From assembly GCF_003002915.1 (NCBI RefSeq), contig NZ_PVTG01000009.1, positions 62,001-126,000 on the forward strand: a DNA stretch of 64,000 bases, given 5' to 3'. The position numbers and the translations under genes were made by a program. Positions 5,912 through 59,024 of the stretch are shown piece after piece (the first letter of the stretch is position 1; the number at the start of each line of letters is the position of its first letter). This DNA comes from Geodermatophilus tzadiensis (lineage in GTDB: Bacteria > Actinomycetota > Actinomycetes > Mycobacteriales > Geodermatophilaceae). The notes below the pieces were generated by a model. That model saw only the letters and a program-made list of their open reading frames with translations. It ran no database searches and was not told the origin of the DNA.

Positions 5912-5942
5912 GCGCCCCCTCCCGCGCGGGGAGGGGGCGCTC
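5910..5942. terminator. Bidirectional hairpin terminator between convergent genes
   Basis: The arms GAGCGCCCCCTCCC and GGGAGGGGGCGCTC pair perfectly over 14 bp with a 5-nt loop. The hairpin begins inside the stop codon of the SnoaL-like gene and lies 21 bp from the stop of the convergent dehydrogenase. No U tract follows on either strand, as is common in actinobacteria. The core GAGCGCCC...GGGCGCTC recurs at 31003-31059. Confidence 0.75.
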
Positions 5943-5963
5943 GGCGCATCCTCGAGCGGCCGG

Positions 5964-12669: not shown

Positions 12670-14211
12670 GTGACACCACCCGGAACGCACGCCGGCGGCA
12701 CCGCCGACGACGCCCAGCTCGCTGCACTGGGCTACACCGGCCAGTTCGAGCGCAGCATGGGCCTGTGGGCCAACATGGCCCTGGGCTTCACGTACCTGTC
12801 CCCGCTGGTGGGTGTGTACTCCCTGTTCGCCTACAGCCTCTCCATCGGCGGGCCCCCGGCGATCTGGTGGATCGTCATCGTCGGCGTCGGCCAGCTGCTG
12901 GTGGCGCTGGTCTTCGGCGAGGTGGTCTCCCAGTACCCGCTGGCCGGCGGCATCTACCCGTGGACGCGGCGGCTGTGGAACCGGCGCTACGCCTGGATCG
13001 TCTCGTGGGTCTACATCTGGGCGATCATCGTCACCGTCACCGCCGTGGCCGAGTTCGGCGGTGGCTTCGTCGCCGCGCTGTTCGGCATCGAGGCCAGCCC
13101 CGGCGTGGCGCTGGCGACCGCGGTGGGGCTGCTCGTCCTCGCCTTCGGCATCAACTACAGCGGCACCCGCACGCTGGCCCGCATCGCGAAGATCGGCCTG
13201 GCCGCGGAGCTCGTCGGTGTCGTCGCGCTGGGCCTCTACCTGCTGCTGTTCCGGCGGGAGCAGCCGTTCTCGATCTTCTTCGACACCCTCGGTGCCGGCG
13301 GCGGCGGGGCGTACGCGGGCACCTTCCTGGCCGCGGCGCTGTCCGGGCTGTTCCTCTTCTACGGCTTCGAGGCCTGCGGTGACGTCGCCGAGGAGGTCGC
13401 CGACCCGACCCGCCGCATCCCGCGGGCGATGGTCCTGACCATCCTGGTCGGCGGGGTGTCGGGCCTCCTCTCCTACGCCGGCTACGTGCTGGCCGCCCCG
13501 GACGCCCAGCTGCAGGCGATCATGGCCGGCGAGGACGTCGACCCGATCCCGAGCATCCTGGAGAGCGCGCTGGGCACCGTCGGGTCGAAGGTCTTCCTCG
13601 TCGTCACCGTCGTCGCCTTCGTCTCCTGCGTGCTGTCCCTGCAGGCCGCCGGCAGCCGGCTGCTCTACGCCTTCGCCCGCGACCGGATGCTGCCGGCGAG
13701 CGGGTGGCTGTCCCACGTCTCCGCACGGCACGCCGTCCCCACGAACGCGCTGCTCGTGGTGTGCGTGGTGCCGGTGCTGATCTGCCTGTTCGTCTTCTGG
13801 CAGCCCGACTCCCTGGCCCGGGTCACCGCGTTCGCGGTCCTCGGCATCTACATCGCCTTCCAGGCGGTCGTCCTGGCCGCGCTGCGGCAACGGCTCAAGG
13901 GCTGGCGGCCGGCGGGCCTGTGGAACCTCGGCCCGGCCGGCCTGGTGGTCAACGTGCTCGCGCTGGCCTACGGCGTGTTCGCCATCGTGCTGCTGCTCAA
14001 GCCGGCCCCGGGCACCGAGACCCTCCTCGACCGCTGGATCGTCGCCATCGGCCTGGCCGTCGTCGCCGGGAGCGGGTTGCTCTACCTGTTCCTCGCCCGG
14101 CCGGACCGCCACTCCGCACACGTCCCCGAGGGCGACGCCCGCGAGGTCGCAGCACAGCTCCAGCAGATCCGGCGGAGTGCCGGTGTCCGGGTGAGTGAGG
14201 AGATCCGATGA
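12670..14211 (+). CDS. APC family amino acid / polyamine permease
   Basis: This is a 513-residue integral membrane protein of the APC superfamily with about twelve hydrophobic helices from residue 40 onward. The first conserved segment is MALGFTYLSPLVGVYSLFAY, and the family signature FEACGDVAEEVADPTRRIPR lies in the middle. The GTG at 12670 has GAGGAG upstream. It would import an amino acid or amine by proton or sodium symport. It overlaps the following LLM gene by 4 nt and lies downstream of the GntR/cache pair with a candidate operator in the gap. The ligand is not predictable from sequence. Confidence 0.88.
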   Translation: MTPPGTHAGGTADDAQLAALGYTGQFERSMGLWANMALGFTYLSPLVGVYSLFAYSLSIGGPPAIWWIVIVGVGQLLVALVFGEVVSQYPLAGGIYPWTRRLWNRRYAWIVSWVYIWAIIVTVTAVAEFGGGFVAALFGIEASPGVALATAVGLLVLAFGINYSGTRTLARIAKIGLAAELVGVVALGLYLLLFRREQPFSIFFDTLGAGGGGAYAGTFLAAALSGLFLFYGFEACGDVAEEVADPTRRIPRAMVLTILVGGVSGLLSYAGYVLAAPDAQLQAIMAGEDVDPIPSILESALGTVGSKVFLVVTVVAFVSCVLSLQAAGSRLLYAFARDRMLPASGWLSHVSARHAVPTNALLVVCVVPVLICLFVFWQPDSLARVTAFAVLGIYIAFQAVVLAALRQRLKGWRPAGLWNLGPAGLVVNVLALAYGVFAIVLLLKPAPGTETLLDRWIVAIGLAVVAGSGLLYLFLARPDRHSAHVPEGDAREVAAQLQQIRRSAGVRVSEEIR

Positions 14212-15254
14212 AGTTCAGCTACGCGATGCTGCCCGACTACTCCCTCGAGGAGTGCCTGCGGGCGATCCGGCTGGCCGACGAGCTCGGCTTCCACGCCGTG
14301 TACGCCGCCGACGAGACCTGGCACAAGGACCTGTGGCTGCTCTTCGCCGCCGCGGCCGCCCAGACCTCGCGGATCCGGATGGGGCCGAGCGTGTCGCCGG
14401 TGACCCTCCGGGAGCCCACGCTGATCGCGCAGGCCGCGGCCACCCTCGACGAGCTCACCGGGGGACGGGCGGAGGTCGTGCTGTCCAGCGGCAACTTCGG
14501 GCTGCTGGCGCAGTACAAGCTGGACTGGACGAAGACCAAGCCGCTGTCGCGGGTCGTCGAGGCGGTCCACGTCGTCCGCACCCTGCTCGACGACGGGGCG
14601 ATCACCTACGACGGCGAGTTCTTCCGCTACGACGGGCTGTTCACCTTCGCCCGGCCGGTGCAGGAGCGGCTGCCGGTCAAGATGGGCGCGATGCGGGGCC
14701 CGAAGTCGTTCGAGGCCGCCGCGGAGCACTCCGACGGCTGCCACCACGCGCTCAGCTACAGCCGGGAGGCCTACGAGTACGCCGCCGAGCACCTGCGGAT
14801 CGGCGCCGAGCGGGCCGGCAAGGACTGGACGACGCTGGACTTCGGCGCCTGGGTGGTCGTCGCCGTGGGCCGGGACTCCGCGGCCGCGAAGGACGCCGCC
14901 CGCAGCATGGTCGGCATCTACGCCTCCTCCATGCCGGCCGAGCAGCTGGAGCGGCACGGGGTGGACGCGGCGGAGCTGAAGCCGATCGTCGACGCCATCG
15001 CCGCCGGTGACCTCGCGCGGGGCATCGAGCTGACCTCCCCGGAGCTCACCGAGAAGCTGTCGTTCTCCGGGACGCCGGAGGAGGTGACGGCGAAGATCAA
15101 GGAGATCGAGCCGACCGGCGTCAACCACCTGATCGCCGCGATCACCGACGCCTCGATCGTCAGGACCTTCACCGGGCGCGAGCTGCCCGGGGTGGCGTCG
15201 GTGGAGGAGCAGCTGCAGCTGATCCACGACGAGGTCATGCCCGCCTTCGCCTGA
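14208..15254 (+). CDS. LLM-class flavin/F420-dependent oxidoreductase
   Basis: This 348-residue protein belongs to the luciferase-like monooxygenase family, which uses FMN or coenzyme F420 in a TIM barrel. The start MKFSYAMLPDYSLEECLRAI is followed by ADELGFHAVYAADETWHKD and RIRMGPSVSPVTLREP, typical of F420-dependent reductases. The insertion AAAEHSDGCHHALSYSREAY is also family-like. Its ATGA overlap with the permease gene suggests it acts on the imported compound or its product. Whether FMN or F420 is used cannot be decided here, although actinobacteria of this type do make F420. Confidence 0.85.
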   Translation: MKFSYAMLPDYSLEECLRAIRLADELGFHAVYAADETWHKDLWLLFAAAAAQTSRIRMGPSVSPVTLREPTLIAQAAATLDELTGGRAEVVLSSGNFGLLAQYKLDWTKTKPLSRVVEAVHVVRTLLDDGAITYDGEFFRYDGLFTFARPVQERLPVKMGAMRGPKSFEAAAEHSDGCHHALSYSREAYEYAAEHLRIGAERAGKDWTTLDFGAWVVVAVGRDSAAAKDAARSMVGIYASSMPAEQLERHGVDAAELKPIVDAIAAGDLARGIELTSPELTEKLSFSGTPEEVTAKIKEIEPTGVNHLIAAITDASIVRTFTGRELPGVASVEEQLQLIHDEVMPAFA

Positions 15255-15261
15255 GCCCTGC

Positions 15262-15489
15262 GTGCACGTCCGCGGAGTTGCCCACGGGCAACTCCGCGGA
15301 CGTGCACGGGGCAACTCCGCGGACGTGCACGGGGCAACTCCGCGGACGTGCACGGGGCAACTCCGCGGACGTGCACGGGGCAACTCCGCGGACGTGCACG
15401 GGGCAACTCCGCGGACGTGCACGGGGCAACTCCGCGGACGTGCACGGGGCAACTCCGCGGACGTGCACGGGGCAACTCCGCGGAGTTGC
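15262..15489. repeat. Tandem array of nine 23-bp CCGCGG-centred repeats with inverted ends
   Basis: The unit GCAACTCCGCGGACGTGCAC plus GGG repeats exactly every 23 bp, with GCAACTCCGCGG at 15288, 15311, 15334, 15357, 15380, 15403, 15426, 15449 and 15472. The first unit is preceded by an inverted copy (15262-15283), and the last ends in the palindrome GCAACTCCGCGGAGTTGC (15472-15489). The whole array fits between the stops of two convergent genes. There are no unique spacers, so it is not CRISPR. A related inverted repeat is at 58192-58236. Confidence 0.9.
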
Positions 15490-15493
15490 ACGC

Positions 15494-17002
15494 TCAGGCG
15501 GTCGGCGGGTGCAGCGCCAGCCAGAGCTCGGCGCGGACGCCGGGGGAGTCCAGGTCGCGGCCCAGCAGCTCCTCGGCCCGGCGGATGCGCTTGCGCAGGG
15601 TGTGCCGGTGCACGCCCAGCCGGGCCGCGGCCGGCTCCCACTGGCCGTGCGCGGCCAGCCAGACCCGCAGCGACTCGACCAGGTCGCCGGGTCCGGCGCG
15701 GTCGGCGGCGGCCAGCGGCGCGAGGGCGGCCTCGGCGAAGGCGGTGGTGGCCGCCGGGTCGAGCAGCGCGCCCAGCCCGCGGCCGGCGAGGTCGGCGAAG
15801 GCGGTCACCGGCCGCCCGGCGGCGCGGCCGTGCCCGGCGGCCTGGCGGGCCTGCCGCACGCCGTCGGCCAGCCGCGCCCACGGCACGGGCGCGGCGGTGC
15901 CCAGGACCGCGCCGGGCACCCGCTCCGGCAGGTCGGCGAGCCGGCCGGCCAGCGCGCCGCCGGCCGGCACCAGGACGACGAGGGCGTCGTCGACCTCGGC
16001 CGACAGGACCGGCTCGCGCGAGGCGGCGGCCGCGTCAGCGGCGACGTCGACGGCGGCGGCGCGCTGCTCGGCGCTGCCCAGCACGGCGACGGTCAGCACC
16101 GGCTCGTCCGGCAGCCGCTCGCCCAGCGCCGCCACCACGGGCTCGGCCGCGGCGGTCTGCCCGGCCAGCAGCAGCCGCAGGATCGCCGCCCGCAGCGCCG
16201 CGGTGCCCGAGTCCAGCGCCCGCGACTGCTCCAGCCGCAGGGTCAGCAGCAGCGCGGCGGCGTTGACCACGTGCCGGTCGCCGGCCGGGAAGGGCCCGGG
16301 CCGGCCGACGGCGAGGAAGCCGCGCACCCGCGACCCGGTGCCCAGCGACTGCAGCAGCACCGTCTCCCCGGGCTGGGTGAGCGCGGCCCCGGCCGGCGGG
16401 CGGGCGGTGCGCAGCCGGTCGACCGCGCCGGCCAGCGCCCCGGCGCGTGACCGCGCCCCGGCCGGGGCGGCCTCCAGCGGCGTCCCGGCGGCGTCGAGCA
16501 GCAGGGCCCAGCCGCCGAGGTGGCGGGCCAGCCGGTCGACGACGGTGCCCGGGGCGCCCGGACCGACCGCGGCGCGGGTCAGCTCCCGCTGCACCGTCGA
16601 CGTGCGGGCCACCGCCGCGTACTCCTCGGCGGCCAGCGCGGTGGACACCGTCCGCGACAGCGCGATGAACGGCGTCTGCCGCGGCACCTCGAGCACCGCC
16701 AGGCCGGACTCGTCGGCGGCGGCCACCAGCTCGTCGGGCACCCGCTCGTGGCTGAGCCCGGTGCCCAGGCCCAGGCCGACCACGCCCGCGCCGGCCAGCC
16801 GCCGCACGTACGCGGGGGCGTCCCCGGGGGTCAGGGCCAGGCCGGTGGTCAGCAGCAGCTCGCCGCCCTCGAGGAACGGTGTCGGGTCGGCCAGCTCGCT
16901 GACGTGCACCCAGGAGACGGCGCGGTCCACCGGCGCGCTGCGGGTGTGCAGCGCCAGCTCCAGCGACGCGGTCCCCAGCAGGGTCGCCACGGTGACCGGC
17001 AC
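15494..17002 (-). CDS. PucR family transcriptional regulator
   Basis: This is a 502-residue regulator. The N-terminal PucR sensory domain (about residues 1-125) contains HVSELADPTPFLEGGELLLT, and the C-terminus has the PucR HTH_30 domain with WEPAAARLGVHRHTLRKRIR. A GGDEF-like middle region links the two. The GTG at 17002 has GAGAGG at good distance and gives the usual start PVTVATLLG; a GTG at 17029 is possible. It is divergent from gabT and most likely regulates GABA/glutamate breakdown, since PucR proteins in actinobacteria often activate gabT, purine or amine catabolic genes. The 23-bp array lies directly after its stop. Confidence 0.88.
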   Translation of the reverse strand: MPVTVATLLGTASLELALHTRSAPVDRAVSWVHVSELADPTPFLEGGELLLTTGLALTPGDAPAYVRRLAGAGVVGLGLGTGLSHERVPDELVAAADESGLAVLEVPRQTPFIALSRTVSTALAAEEYAAVARTSTVQRELTRAAVGPGAPGTVVDRLARHLGGWALLLDAAGTPLEAAPAGARSRAGALAGAVDRLRTARPPAGAALTQPGETVLLQSLGTGSRVRGFLAVGRPGPFPAGDRHVVNAAALLLTLRLEQSRALDSGTAALRAAILRLLLAGQTAAAEPVVAALGERLPDEPVLTVAVLGSAEQRAAAVDVAADAAAASREPVLSAEVDDALVVLVPAGGALAGRLADLPERVPGAVLGTAAPVPWARLADGVRQARQAAGHGRAAGRPVTAFADLAGRGLGALLDPAATTAFAEAALAPLAAADRAGPGDLVESLRVWLAAHGQWEPAAARLGVHRHTLRKRIRRAEELLGRDLDSPGVRAELWLALHPPTA

Positions 17003-21621: not shown

Positions 21622-21670
21622 GGGCGGCTGAGGAGGGACCCCGTGCGGGGGTCCCTCCTCAGCCGCCCTC
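21620..21670. terminator. Perfect 23-bp hairpin overlapping both convergent stop codons
   Basis: The arms run from 21620 to 21642 and from 21648 to 21670, pair perfectly over 23 bp, and enclose a 5-nt loop. The stop codon of the glutamate dehydrogenase gene starts the left arm and the stop of the convergent dehydrogenase (21659-21661) lies in the right arm. It should act as a bidirectional terminator even without T tracts. Confidence 0.85.
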
Positions 21671-25149: not shown

Positions 25150-25180
25150 GTCGCGGGCCGGACCTCCCCCTGCGCACCGT

Positions 25181-25241
25181 CTCCTGCGCGTCGTCGTGCG
25201 CTGCCCACCGACTGTGGGCAGAGCACGACGACGCGCGGGAG
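25181..25241. terminator. Long hairpin terminator between convergent Lrp and ureohydrolase genes
   Basis: Segments GCGCGTCGTCGTGC (25186-25199) and GCACGACGACGCGC (25223-25236), and CTGCCCAC/GTGGGCAG immediately inside, form a stem of about 28 bp with one internal mismatch and a 5-nt loop. It lies 31 bp past the Lrp stop and 5 bp from the stop of the convergent ureohydrolase, so it can serve both. Confidence 0.75.
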
Positions 25242-25246
25242 GAGGA

Positions 25247-31679: not shown

Positions 31680-32383
31680 GGACGACGCAGGACCGGGCTC
31701 ACGGCGCCGAGCCCGCGGACGGCGGCCAGCAGCAGCGCGACCACCGCCAGCAGGCCCGCGACCGGCCCGGCCCAGGCGGCCAGGCCGGTCGCGGCGGAGT
31801 GCACGTGACCGCCGGCGACCGGCGGGTGGGCGAGCAGCATCGCCGTCGTCAGCACGACGTGCGCCGCCCACGCCGCCCGGCCCGGCCGCCGCCACAGGTG
31901 CACCGCGCACACCAGGCAGGCCGCCGACAGCAGCGCCGTCCCGGCGTGCGGTGCGGCGAGGAGGGCCAGGCCGTGCACCGCGGCGCAGCCCGCCGCGGCC
32001 CCCGCTGCGCTGTGCGCGAGGAACCGCGGCAGGGCCGCCGCACCGAGCGGCAGCAGGACGTCCGGCCCCGCTGCGGGGGCCCGCCGCGAGCCCGCGAGCG
32101 GTGGGAGGCCGGGAGTGCTTGTCCGCGGCCCCGCTGCAGGGTCCCGCCGCGAGCCTGCGAGCGGTGGGGGGCCGGGAGTGCTTGTCCGCGGCCCCGCTGC
32201 AGGGTCCCGCCGCGAGCCTGCGAGCGGTGGGGGGCCGGGAGTGCTTGTCCGCGGCCCCGCTGCAGGGTCCCGCCGCGAGCCTGCGAGCGGTGGGGGGCCG
32301 GGAGTGCTTGTCCGCGGCCCCGCTGCAGGGTCCCGCCGCGAGCCTGCGAGCGGTGGGGGGCAGCGGGGTCCTTCTAGTGGCAC
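31676..32383 (-). CDS. Hypothetical membrane protein with repeat-encoded N-terminus
   Basis: The C-terminal 110-125 residues form about four membrane helices ([75 protein letters not shown]). Upstream, the frame runs through the 63-bp array as five copies of a 21-residue Pro/Arg unit ([19 protein letters not shown]). The only long start is GTG at 32383, overlapping the copper amine oxidase stop by 10 nt; GTG at 31978 would cut helix 1. Since the array period is a multiple of three, frame conservation does not prove translation. Function unknown; the start is uncertain. Confidence 0.45.
32055..32369. repeat. 63-bp tandem repeat array, four near-identical units and one degenerate unit
   Basis: Units begin at 32118, 32181, 32244 and 32307 (CTTGTCCGCGGCCCCGCTGC marks each) with an exact 63-bp period and almost no differences. 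A diverged partial unit lies at about 32055-32117, and the last unit ends in CGGTGGGGGGCAGC. The array lies between the copper amine oxidase stop and a membrane-protein core. Each unit contains CCGCGGCCCCGCTGCAGGG and a GCGAGCCTGCGAGC segment. No unique spacers occur. Confidence 0.9.
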
Positions 32384-42952: not shown

Positions 42953-42960
42953 GTCCGGCG

Positions 42961-42988
42961 GTCCGGCGGTCCCGCGGGGCCGCCGGAC
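42961..42988. terminator. Hairpin between convergent aldolase and methyltransferase genes
   Basis: GTCCGGCGG (42961-42969) and CCGCCGGAC (42980-42988) form a perfect 9-bp stem with a 10-nt loop that is itself partly pairable. It starts 8 bp after the aldolase stop and ends 5 bp before the convergent stop. Confidence 0.65.
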
Positions 42989-42993
42989 CGGCC

Positions 42994-56019: not shown

Positions 56020-56651
56020 GCGGCTCCCGAGACCAGGACGACGACCAGCGTGCGGGGGCCGTGCACGCCCTCCACCCGCTGCAGCTCGATGTCGCTGGTG
56101 GCCGACGGCCCGCTGATCATCGTCAGCGGGCGCAGCGGGTCCAGCCGGCCCAGGCTCTCGGGCACGTTCCCGACCACCTGGTCGGCGGTCACCACGCAGA
56201 CCAGGCAGTCGGGCAGCAGCGACAGCGCCCGCCGGCCGCACGGCGGCGTCCCGTCGAGCACCAGCGTGCCGGTCTCGGCGATCGCCACGGCGACGGCGGT
56301 GACCGAGGCGGCCCGCTCGGCGAGCTGCACCGGCGGCCGGTCGTCGTCGGTGTCCAGACCCTCGGGGCGCCAGGCGGCGGGCAGACCCGGCGCGGCCACC
56401 ACCGACCCCGGCGCCCAGCCGGTGCCCAGCCCGGAGTCCAGCGCGGCTGTCACGGTGGCCGCGACGTCGTCGGGACCGCAGCGCAGCACCGAGGCCTTGT
56501 AGTCCTCGAGCCGGTCGACGAGGACGTCGAGCAGCTCGGCTGCCGGGCGGTCGTCGGTGGTGCGGTAGTCGCGCACCACCTCCGGCACCGGCGCCCGCGT
56601 CTCGCCCAGCGCGGTGCGGATGCGGCCGAGCACCTCCTCGCGGGCGCTCAC
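56004..56651 (-). CDS. lutC: Lactate utilization protein C (LUD domain)
   Basis: This is a 215-residue LUD-domain protein. It begins SAREEVLGRIRTALGET and has AVAIAETGTLVLDGTPPCGR, LPDCLVCVVTADQVVGNVPE and the end SGPSATSDIELQRVEGVHGP, all LutC/YkgG features. Its GTG overlaps lutB by 4 nt. LutABC together oxidise L-lactate to pyruvate through Fe-S clusters. The C-terminus runs into the 29-bp palindrome so the stop codon is in the hairpin. Confidence 0.9.
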   Translation of the reverse strand: MSAREEVLGRIRTALGETRAPVPEVVRDYRTTDDRPAAELLDVLVDRLEDYKASVLRCGPDDVAATVTAALDSGLGTGWAPGSVVAAPGLPAAWRPEGLDTDDDRPPVQLAERAASVTAVAVAIAETGTLVLDGTPPCGRRALSLLPDCLVCVVTADQVVGNVPESLGRLDPLRPLTMISGPSATSDIELQRVEGVHGPRTLVVVLVSGAAATIR

Positions 56652-58177
56652 GACCGGCCCCCGTGCTCGCGCGCCCACTGGGCGGTGAAGCTCTCCGCGG
56701 GCGGGGTGGGCAGGTCGCGGCTGCGGGTCCACGCCGAGGCGGGGAAGGGCAGCGCGGCCGGCATGGTGGGCCGCCCCCGGGCGAGGAGCCGGCCCAGGCC
56801 GGCCGCCCGCTGCGCCAGCCGCCACAGCCGCGGGCTGCTCATCGCCCGCGCCAGCGCCTTGAACGCCACCGACTCCGCGGTCGGCTTCTCCTGCGCCTCG
56901 ACGTGCTCGGCGCGCAGGTGCACGAGGATCGACGGGATGTCGATGGCCACCGGGCAGACGTCGTAGCAGGCGCCGCACAGCGAGGAGGCATAGGGCAGCG
57001 AGGCGTTGTCCTCGACGCCGGTCAGCTGCGGCGAGAGCACCGCGCCGATCGGCCCCGGGTACACCGAGCCGTACGCGTGCCCGCCGGTGCGCTCGTAGAC
57101 CGGGCACACGTTGAGGCAGGCCGAGCAGCGGATGCAGTGCAGCGCCTGGCGGCCCACCTCGTCGGCCAGGACCGCCGTCCGGCCGTTGTCGACGAGCACC
57201 AGGTGGAAGTCCTGCGGCCCGTCGCCGGGCGTCACGCCGGCCCACATCGAGGTGTAGGGGTTCATCCGCTCTCCGGTGGAGGAGCGGGGCAGCAGCTGGA
57301 GGAACACCTCCAGGTCGGGCCAGGTCGGCACCAGCTTCTCGATGCCCATGACGGTGATCAGCGTCTCGGGCAGGGTCAGGCACATCCGGCCGTTGCCCTC
57401 GCTCTCGACGACGGCGAGCGTGCCGGTCTCGGCGACGGCGAAGTTCGCCCCGCTGATCGCCACCCGGGCCCGGAGGAACCGCTCCCGCAGGTGCGACCGG
57501 GCGGCCATCGCCAGCCGGCGCGGCTCGTCGGTGAGGTCGGCGTCGACCCGGGGCATGGTGCGCAGGAAGATCTCGCGGATCTCGGCGCGGTTCTTGTGGA
57601 TCGCCGGCACCAGGATGTGGCTGGGCTTGTCGTCCCCGAGCTGCACGATCAGCTCGGCGAGGTCGGTCTCGTGCGCGGCGATGCCCGCGGCCTCGAGCGC
57701 CTCGTTCAGGCCGATCTCCTGGGTGGCCATCGACTTGACCTTGACCACCTCGTCGGTGCCGGTGGCCCGGACCAGGTCGGTGACGATGCGGTTGGCCTCG
57801 GCGGCGTCGCGCGCCCAGTGCACCGTGCCGCCGCGGGCGGTCACCTGCCGCTCGAGCTCCTCGAGGTGCTCGTCGAGGCGGGCCATCGTCGCGGCCTTGA
57901 GCGCGCTGCCCGCCGCCCGCAGCTGCTGCCAGTCGGGCAGCTCGGCGACCACCCGGGCGCGCTTGCCGCGGATCGTCTGCGTCGCGTGGCCGAGGTTGGC
58001 GCGCAGCTGGCCGTCGCGCAGCGCGTCGCGGGCGGCGTCGGGGAAGGACCGGTCGCCGCGCAGGTGGCCGACGCCGCGGGGCGCGGTCGGCAGGCCGAGG
58101 AACGTCGTCCCCGACCTCGGGGCGCCCGGGGCGAGCGGGGTCTGGTCGGTGCGCAGGTCCTGCGGGGTCGTCGTCAC
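56648..58177 (-). CDS. lutB: Lactate utilization Fe-S protein B
   Basis: This 509-residue protein has an N-terminal LUD domain (residues about 60-300, VKVKSMATQEIGLNEALEAA, AISGANFAVAETGTLAVVES, TVMGIEKLVPTWPDLEVF) and a two-cluster ferredoxin domain with HCIRCSACLNVCPVYERTGG and LCGACYDVCPVAID. The length and order are those of LutB (YkgF). It transfers electrons during lactate oxidation. The GTG at 58177 has GAGGAG upstream. A hairpin at 58192-58236 lies between it and lutA, which could weaken or adjust expression relative to lutA. Confidence 0.92.
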   Translation of the reverse strand: MTTTPQDLRTDQTPLAPGAPRSGTTFLGLPTAPRGVGHLRGDRSFPDAARDALRDGQLRANLGHATQTIRGKRARVVAELPDWQQLRAAGSALKAATMARLDEHLEELERQVTARGGTVHWARDAAEANRIVTDLVRATGTDEVVKVKSMATQEIGLNEALEAAGIAAHETDLAELIVQLGDDKPSHILVPAIHKNRAEIREIFLRTMPRVDADLTDEPRRLAMAARSHLRERFLRARVAISGANFAVAETGTLAVVESEGNGRMCLTLPETLITVMGIEKLVPTWPDLEVFLQLLPRSSTGERMNPYTSMWAGVTPGDGPQDFHLVLVDNGRTAVLADEVGRQALHCIRCSACLNVCPVYERTGGHAYGSVYPGPIGAVLSPQLTGVEDNASLPYASSLCGACYDVCPVAIDIPSILVHLRAEHVEAQEKPTAESVAFKALARAMSSPRLWRLAQRAAGLGRLLARGRPTMPAALPFPASAWTRSRDLPTPPAESFTAQWAREHGGRS

Positions 58178-58191
58178 GCGGCGCTCCTCTC

Positions 58192-58236
58192 GTGCATCTC
58201 CGCGGAAGTGCCCGGTGCACCTCCGCGGAGATGCAC
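58192..58236. repeat. Inverted repeat in lutA-lutB gap, related to the 23-bp array
   Basis: The arms GTGCATCTCCGCGG (58192-58205) and CCGCGGAGATGCAC (58223-58236) pair perfectly over 14 bp, with a 17-nt loop holding GTGCCCGGTGCAC. The CCGCGG core with flanking GTGCA and GTGCCC/GTGCAC is the same pattern as the units of the array at 15262-15489. It lies within a 73-nt space inside an operon. Confidence 0.75.
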
Positions 58237-58250
58237 CGGGACGGTGGCGG

Positions 58251-59024
58251 TCACGCGGTCACCGCCGGGCGGGTGGTCTGGTCGGGGCTCACGGCGTCCT
58301 CCGTCGAGGCCAGGATCTCGGCCAGGTGCACCGTCCGGGTGCCCGAGCGCAGCCGGGACAGCCCGCCGCCGATGTGCATCAGGCAGGAGGAGTCGCCGGC
58401 GGTGCAGACCTCGGCGTGGGTGGACAGCACGTTGGCCATCTTGTCGGTGAGCATCGCCGTCGAGGTGTCGCTGTTCTTCACCGAGAAGGTGCCGCCGAAC
58501 CCGCAGCAGGACTCCGCGCCCGGCAGCTCCACCAGCTCCAGCCCGCGCACCGCGCGCAGCAGCTGCAGCGGCCGGTCGCCGACCTTGAGCAGCCGCAGCG
58601 AGTGGCAGGTCGGGTGGTAGGTGACCCGGTGCGCGTAGTAGGCGCCGACGTCGGTGACGCCGAGGACGTCGACGAGGAACTGCGACAGCTCGTAGGTGCG
58701 CGCGGCCAGCGCCTCGGCCTCGTCGGCCAGCCCGTGCTCACCCGCCCGGCGGGCCACCATCGCCTGCTGGTGGTGGATCGAGGCCACGCACGACCCCGAC
58801 GGCGCGACCACGGCCTCGGCGCCGGCGAAGGCGCGCACGTGGTTGGCCACGATCGGCACCGCCTCGCGCCGGTAGCCGGTGTTGACGTGCATCTGCCCGC
58901 AGCAGGCCTGCCCGGCCGGCACGACCACCTCGTGGCCCAGCCGCTCGAGCAGCACCGCCGTCGCCCGGGCGACCTGCGGCACCACCGTGTCCACCAGGCA
59001 GGTGGCGAAGAGCGCGACCCTCAT
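58251..59024 (-). CDS. lutA: Lactate utilization Fe-S oxidoreductase A
   Basis: This 257-residue protein has two CCG domains: GQACCGQMHVNTGYRREA and later YHPTCHSLRLL plus LPGAESCCGFGGTFSVKN, together holding Fe-S clusters as in LutA (YkgE). It starts MRVALFATCLVDTVVPQVAR, the usual family start. It is the first gene of lutABC, 12 bp after the LacI stop in the same direction, so it may be on a LacI-lut transcript as well as its own. L-lactate oxidation fits as the end of a deoxysugar pathway in which lactaldehyde is oxidised to lactate. Confidence 0.92.
   Translation of the reverse strand: MRVALFATCLVDTVVPQVARATAVLLERLGHEVVVPAGQACCGQMHVNTGYRREAVPIVANHVRAFAGAEAVVAPSGSCVASIHHQQAMVARRAGEHGLADEAEALAARTYELSQFLVDVLGVTDVGAYYAHRVTYHPTCHSLRLLKVGDRPLQLLRAVRGLELVELPGAESCCGFGGTFSVKNSDTSTAMLTDKMANVLSTHAEVCTAGDSSCLMHIGGGLSRLRSGTRTVHLAEILASTEDAVSPDQTTRPAVTA

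Follow-up and report, generated by a model that had tools for sequence, protein, structure and literature searches.

A tandem array and a lutA-lutB doublet in Geodermatophilus tzadiensis as probable members of one dispersed REP/REPIN-like palindrome family

Two palindromic sites lie in the window, the 64,000-nucleotide stretch of Geodermatophilus tzadiensis DNA analysed here: a tandem array between convergent genes and an inverted repeat between lutA and lutB. Both probably belong to one dispersed, REP/REPIN-like family of extragenic palindromes, which would probably be mobile, with a hairpin active at mRNA 3' ends and with the array as a local amplification. The unit is a near-palindrome of 20-22 bp built on the core (T)TCCGCGGA(A), with arms that differ by clade (GTGCANN...NNTGCAC here), and two inverted units placed 23 bp apart make up a 45-nt element that folds as a hairpin with about 20 bp of stem. 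These elements stand a short way past stop codons; many occupy convergent gaps, some lie inside an apparent operon, and few are found in divergent promoter gaps. In the mechanism that we propose, a putative enzyme would copy them into gene ends as non-autonomous elements, and they would be retained or tolerated at these places for the action of their hairpin on mRNA 3' ends, whether as a bidirectional U-less ('I-shaped') terminator, as a 3'-end stabiliser, or as both. The window array would then be one doublet amplified in tandem on the spot.

The two window sites and the distribution of their motif

The relevant features are listed below; genes were called with an in-house gene finder whose training set was 29 ORFs of the window, and some of its starts may be wrong.

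14208..15254, plus strand: luciferase-like monooxygenase gene (PF00296; Pfam), stop 7 nt ahead of the array
15262..15283, minus strand: inverted first unit, pairing with unit 2 (by reading)
15262..15307, no strand: units 1 and 2, perfect 22-bp inverted repeat (by reading); a plain doublet in G146 and G288
15286..15492, plus strand: nine units of 23 bp, of which eight are identical and the ninth is a palindromic hybrid (Tandem Repeats Finder and reading)
15494..17002, minus strand: PucR-type regulator gene (PF07905, PF13556; Pfam), convergent, its end adjoining the array
56648..58177, minus strand: lutB-type gene (PF02589, PF11870; Pfam), downstream of the doublet
58192..58236, no strand: doublet of the array's family, its hairpin (15 + 4 pairs) predicted at -36.6 kcal/mol (by reading and alignment)
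58251..59024, minus strand: lutA-type gene (PF02754; Pfam), upstream of the doublet

Tandem Repeats Finder, run on the window, reported 9.0 copies at 15286-15492 with a period of 23 and 98% matches. By reading, the array comprises ten units in all, namely one inverted unit, eight identical 23-mers (GGGCAACTCCGCGGACGTGCACG) and a final palindromic hybrid (GGGCAACTCCGCGGAGTTGCACG). The initial annotation had described nine units with an exact 23-bp period; the 23-bp period stands, but there are ten units and the first step measures 24 bp, the rest 23 bp. Units 1 and 2 are separated by a loop of 2 nt within their perfect inverted repeat and are likely to be the doublet from which the array arose. 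Between the two convergent stop codons the gap spans 15255-15493, and the array fills it, as had been claimed.

The core of the array recurs at 58192-58236 in two units 23 bp apart. What had been taken for a perfect 14-bp inverted repeat with the array's core does carry that core, but consists of 15 pairs followed, after one mismatch, by 4 more. The Pfam matches of the flanking genes, of LutA and LutB type, bear out its placement in a lutA-lutB gap. Elsewhere in the window, a second tandem array (32063-32361; 63-bp unit, 4.7 copies, 98% matches) is built of hairpin-like units. Hairpins resembling these stand behind genes in a congener (G170), and a loose pattern for them matched 34 times across the 1.46 Mb of DNA fetched, including 5 matches within that array.

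The pattern first proposed for the family, GTGCA-N3-CCGCGG-N3-GC, proved to be one base short at its right end; as written it matches neither window site, and it returned 6 matches in the genome against 1 for the reversed control. With up to 1 mismatch allowed, the corrected motif, TGCANNTCCGCGGANNTGC, matched the two strands of the window's genome 64/63 times and its reversed control 0/0 times; with up to 2 mismatches the figures were 86/85 and 4/1. In the 64-kb window, 33 matches at up to 3 mismatches compare with 4.93 expected, a number reached in 0/100 shuffles. The view that these are chance GC-rich palindromes, the array and the lutA-lutB hairpin being unrelated, could draw on the poor yield of the uncorrected pattern. 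It is refuted because the corrected motif stands at 64/63 against 0/0, and with the excess in the window we give it a negligible probability. The genome-wide excess, the doublet survey and the unit clusters described below sustain the earlier proposal of one dispersed family whose members can be single or amplified.

Forward motif counts in 11 genomes of the genus were 115 (G057), 80 (G146), 64 (G000, the window's genome), 41 (G225), 23 (G288), 11 (G170), 2, 2, 1, 0 and 0. At up to 1 mismatch, other Geodermatophilaceae had at most 3 matches per strand, save G249 with 6/4, and the rest of the order at most 6. A doublet pattern searched over 84,980 species genomes retrieved 61 stretches, 56 of them from Geodermatophilus, one from Trujillonella and four from others. 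The four outside Geodermatophilaceae (L089, L108, L117, L120) were taken as chance and dropped, and the Trujillonella stretch (L119) gave no cluster. Viral carriage of the doublet was rejected with 0 stretches among viral contigs, as was a known RNA family with 0 Rfam matches in the window at gathering score. The 31 own-genome clusters examined came from the first-listed places of motif matches, later sites with 1-2 mismatches falling outside the set. Only 3 of 142 clusters lie inside predicted genes, so that nearly all are extragenic. Some family members or cores stand near contig ends (L115:19, L119:6, G213:C3:176, G213:C6:135, G213:C7:135), as if repeats had broken the assemblies.

Hairpin structure of the doublets and their position at gene ends

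Across 96 clusters from the window's genome and the named Geodermatophilus contigs, units were spaced by 23 bp in 92 of 103 steps. Among clusters passing the unit filter, to which these grammar counts refer, the variable dinucleotides were complementary across the two units in 42/67 (outer) and 30/67 (inner) cases, compared with shuffle means of 17.4 and 8.2 that no shuffle out of 5000 raised to the observed values. Within units, complementarity was found in only 6/67 and 5/67 cases (shuffles 10.5 and 7.2). In an alignment of 65 doublets (A1), whose two cores and inner TGC/GCA were fixed by the fetch pattern and are thus conserved by construction while the NN columns were free, 92.7% of the cells of a 20-pair stem were paired against 87.7% after shuffling. 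This stem had 73 cells with changes on both sides, where shuffles gave 27.2 (0/500), and a covariation of 0.147 against 0.062 (0/500); one measure of covariation came out weak, the number of pairs with changes on both sides being 6 against 4.9 (47/500 shuffles reached it). Stems slid along the alignment scored far lower. Covariation of the variable bases thus links the two units, and the doublet is a single long hairpin of 45 nt.

Orthologous doublets (16 non-independent pairs) differed by 31 single changes and by double changes of which 13 were compensated and 13 uncompensated, with most changes in the variable columns and in column 2. In 22 tandem doublets, read on the transcribed strand, A.C mismatches outnumbered G.U (13 versus 6), with 31 cells of other mismatches, and convergent doublets had 17 G.U versus 20 A.C. 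Neither set supports RNA-level selection, which would show as G.U over A.C. Self-complementary singles were also dismissed as a rule: a mixed set gave 8/15 versus 11/134 doublet units, yet G. saharensis gave 24/31 versus a shuffle mean of 21.4, which is not significant. Arm pairing in 27 units of G209 (131/162 positions versus 126.3 in shuffles; 158/2000) was likewise not significant.

A placement relative to genes was possible for 138 of the 142 distinct clusters: 70 in convergent, 59 in tandem and 9 in divergent gaps. For comparison, convergent gaps make up 12.5% and divergent gaps 32.8% of the window's intergenic bases. A stop codon lies within 12 nt at 108/138 sites. Among the 59 tandem sites, 47 are nearer a stop and 9 nearer a start, and the next start follows within 30 nt at 21. 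By reading, other convergent gaps of the window (5912-5963, 21622-21658, 25150-25246 and 42953-42993) hold unrelated GC-rich inverted repeats with no T runs.

A GC-rich hairpin 3' of the stop codon, one feature of intrinsic terminators, is thus present, whereas a U tract is not: at 39 tandem sites the 8 nt downstream of the hairpin had a T fraction of 0.10 and at most 2 T. The termination element suggested by the initial annotation accords with position and hairpin covariation, but not with the missing U tract, the closeness of the hairpins to stops or the copies inside apparent operons. According to PMC4824070, E. coli terminators a few bp past a stop are repressed, and one placed 5 bp behind it fell from about 90% efficiency to below 10%. 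U-less terminators are reported for mycobacteria (PMC12288462), and a terminator here, if any, would by analogy be of this mycobacterial type. Because stop-proximal terminators are repressed in E. coli and the mismatch types bear no sign of RNA selection, we infer, rather than observe, both function and mobility.

Orthologous gaps in relatives and the wider family

The gene to the left of the array was found in 8/12 genomes at E <= 1e-60. In five of the eight the PucR gene comes next, and the gap between them holds the array (G000), a plain family doublet (G146, G288) or an unrelated hairpin (G209, G085). G225, G057 and G170 have a different next gene and, behind the luciferase-like monooxygenase gene, a hairpin of other sequence. 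Because relatives hold a plain doublet or an unrelated hairpin in this gap, the array is most simply read as a derived local amplification of a doublet; with eight units identical and the plain doublet in the same gap of G146 and G288, the local amplification proposed at the outset is upheld. G209 was rejected as the closest relative, since its LLM gene comes nearest at 93.7% DNA identity whereas its lutA, at 89.4%, does not.

At the lutA-lutB junction, where some predicted gene starts may be wrong (for instance in G146 and G328), the element occurs in 2/14 genomes (G000 and G057), the genes overlap by 4 bp with the gap absent in 6/14, and other gaps of 11-109 nt occur in 6/14. Between two tetrapyrrole-methylase genes the element is present in G000 and G146, while in G288 the reading frames overlap and have no counterpart of it. 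We read both copies as insertions into operon junctions, deletion being possible at any single site. Five more own-genome sites were followed in five relatives, and a motif scan detected the family in 4/25 gaps (three in G146, one in G170). The remaining 21 held a related variant (G288, one site), unrelated or weak hairpins, TTTCCGCGGAAA-core elements (G209, two sites) or no gap. In a midpoint-rooted lutA tree, the six TGCA-armed genomes form one group with moderate support (87/87).

Two further repeats were encountered in relatives. The six places at which another dispersed palindrome, GGCAGANATGGCCATNTCTGCC, occurs all belong to G. aquaeductus (G146): L099:2497, L099:6307, L110:6027, L112:713, L218:1831 and L323:2278. 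One copy occupies the lutA-lutB gap of that genome, and one stands where the window's genome has the array's family. In L225 (G085), the orthologue of an element-bearing gene is followed by a direct repeat of roughly 90 bp that contains GGGGCCCGGAGGGTCCCCGACGAGGGGCCGGG.

The core alone, TTCCGCGGAA, was counted in 112 Geodermatophilaceae. It was most frequent in G057 (70), G209 (67), G213 (50), G029 (44), G299 (36) and G303 (33) and low in most others, with 0-5 for the reversed control. The sites fetched are mostly palindromes behind genes with differing arms; they were found via the core, so its constancy among them is by construction, whereas the excess over the control is not. Other arms include GGCGATTTCCGCGGAAATCGCC in G209 and GTCGGTTTCCGCGGAAACCGAC in G328, and GCTTTTCCGCGGAAAAGC-type doublets at 23-25 bp were found in G299, G303, G213 and G301. 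The register is looser than in the Geodermatophilus doublets, with 24-25 bp in G303 and G301, 31-33 in G057 and 29-33 in G209. Across the class, a longer core matched in 35/394 genomes (maximum 12; reversed control maximum 1). As several of the fetched class-wide sites fall inside predicted genes, we do not claim the family beyond Geodermatophilaceae.

Some sites with this core or with similar palindromes stood out individually. TTCCGCGGAA is repeated at steps of about 60-100 bp near contig starts in L240 (G186 contig C15) and G186:C25:753-1129. At L308:1188 (G372, another family), the core lies within a canonical-looking bidirectional terminator, AAAAAGCGTTTCCGCGGAAACGCTTTTTT, 16 nt past a predicted stop. 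L315:1245-3184 (G154, another family of the order) has four TTTTCCGCGGAAAA-type palindromes clustered within 2 kb.

Alternative readings and known systems

The elements could be plain bidirectional U-less terminators, a favoured stem having spread by recombination between gene ends with no mobile element involved. The convergent bias and the nearness to stops agree with this, as do the unrelated hairpins that G209 and G085 carry in the array's gap and that several other convergent window gaps contain, the persistence of a hairpin at gene ends while its sequence changes, and the U-less terminators described for mycobacteria (PMC12288462). We nevertheless consider it unlikely, although it deserves weight, given the copies at the lutA-lutB and tetrapyrrole-methylase junctions, where relatives have no gap, a core common to several genera, and hairpins that begin within the reach of the terminating ribosome as given in PMC4824070. 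A protein roadblock or nucleoid site, at which a dimeric DNA-binding protein on TTCCGCGGAA would insulate converging genes with the hairpin secondary, is improbable in our estimate. Enrichment of TTCCGCGGAA in several genera with differing arms is compatible with a core-binding protein, such as the putative one for CCGCGG palindromes raised by the initial annotation, and the fixed 23-bp register of Geodermatophilus doublets would also suit one; but the arms are complementary across, not within, units, a feature not required of a duplex binding site, and the register loosens in G303, G301, G057 and G209.

The preferred reading, a REP/REPIN-like family of probably mobile gene-end palindromes, can be extended, tentatively and with rather less than even confidence, to a RAYT-free REPIN-like element of Geodermatophilaceae. 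Here TTCCGCGGAA would be the recognition site of a putative enzyme or binding protein, and arms replaced clade by clade would yield species 'dialects' of interchangeable gene-end hairpins that take the place of older ones and move into operon junctions. A REP/REPIN-type appearance in high-GC actinobacteria that lack the REP-spreading transposase raises the question of what else disperses short palindromes. As the same gene end can bear a family hairpin, an unrelated hairpin or none, the turnover of gene-end hairpins is directly testable, and arms that change while pairing persists provide a natural experiment on the requirements of a U-less hairpin behind a gene.

The literature searched, which lacks most subscription papers, yielded no earlier description of the family. 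No work recognisably on it appeared among the matches listed for TCCGCGGA with repeats, and the titles and abstract openings of those for TTCCGCGGAA suggest no bacterial repeat. A search for Geodermatophilus with intergenic repeats found no literature, 'palindromic' in PMC9686282 referring to CRISPR only, and RepRanger (PMC12306157) makes no mention of Geodermatophil-, Blastococcus or Modestobacter.

The family resembles REP/REPIN sequences as portrayed in PMC3116915: short, multi-copy extragenic palindromes, inverted doublets that fold as hairpins, and occurrence as singles, doublets and tandem arrays. It differs in the absence of a PF01797 transposase in 12/12 tested genomes and of the GTAG/CGTC tag, in motif matches that number from tens to about a hundred in a genome, and in a core common to genera with differing arms. 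The search for RAYT (Y1 transposase, PF01797), positive in 5/14 control genomes, covered 11 genomes of the genus, the window's own included, and G249, with G213, G299, G303, G029 and G328 outside the test; RAYT-driven REPINs were accordingly rejected. The flank profile had no GTAG/CGTC end tag, a REP hallmark (PMC3733652), but a CCG-like consensus on both sides. Because both transposase and tag are absent, the Geodermatophilus element is not classed as a REPIN. With the U-less 'I-shaped' terminators of actinobacteria it shares GC-rich hairpins after stop codons and the lack of a poly-U tail (PMC12288462). Unlike these, it has one sequence common to many loci, some of them inside apparent operons. 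Inverted pairs of neisserial and Pasteurellaceae uptake sequences act as terminators. Those sequences are short conserved words that recur in structured intergenic families (PMC2267715), a likeness to the present family, but they number hundreds to thousands per genome (PMC2346458), far more than the Geodermatophilus family.
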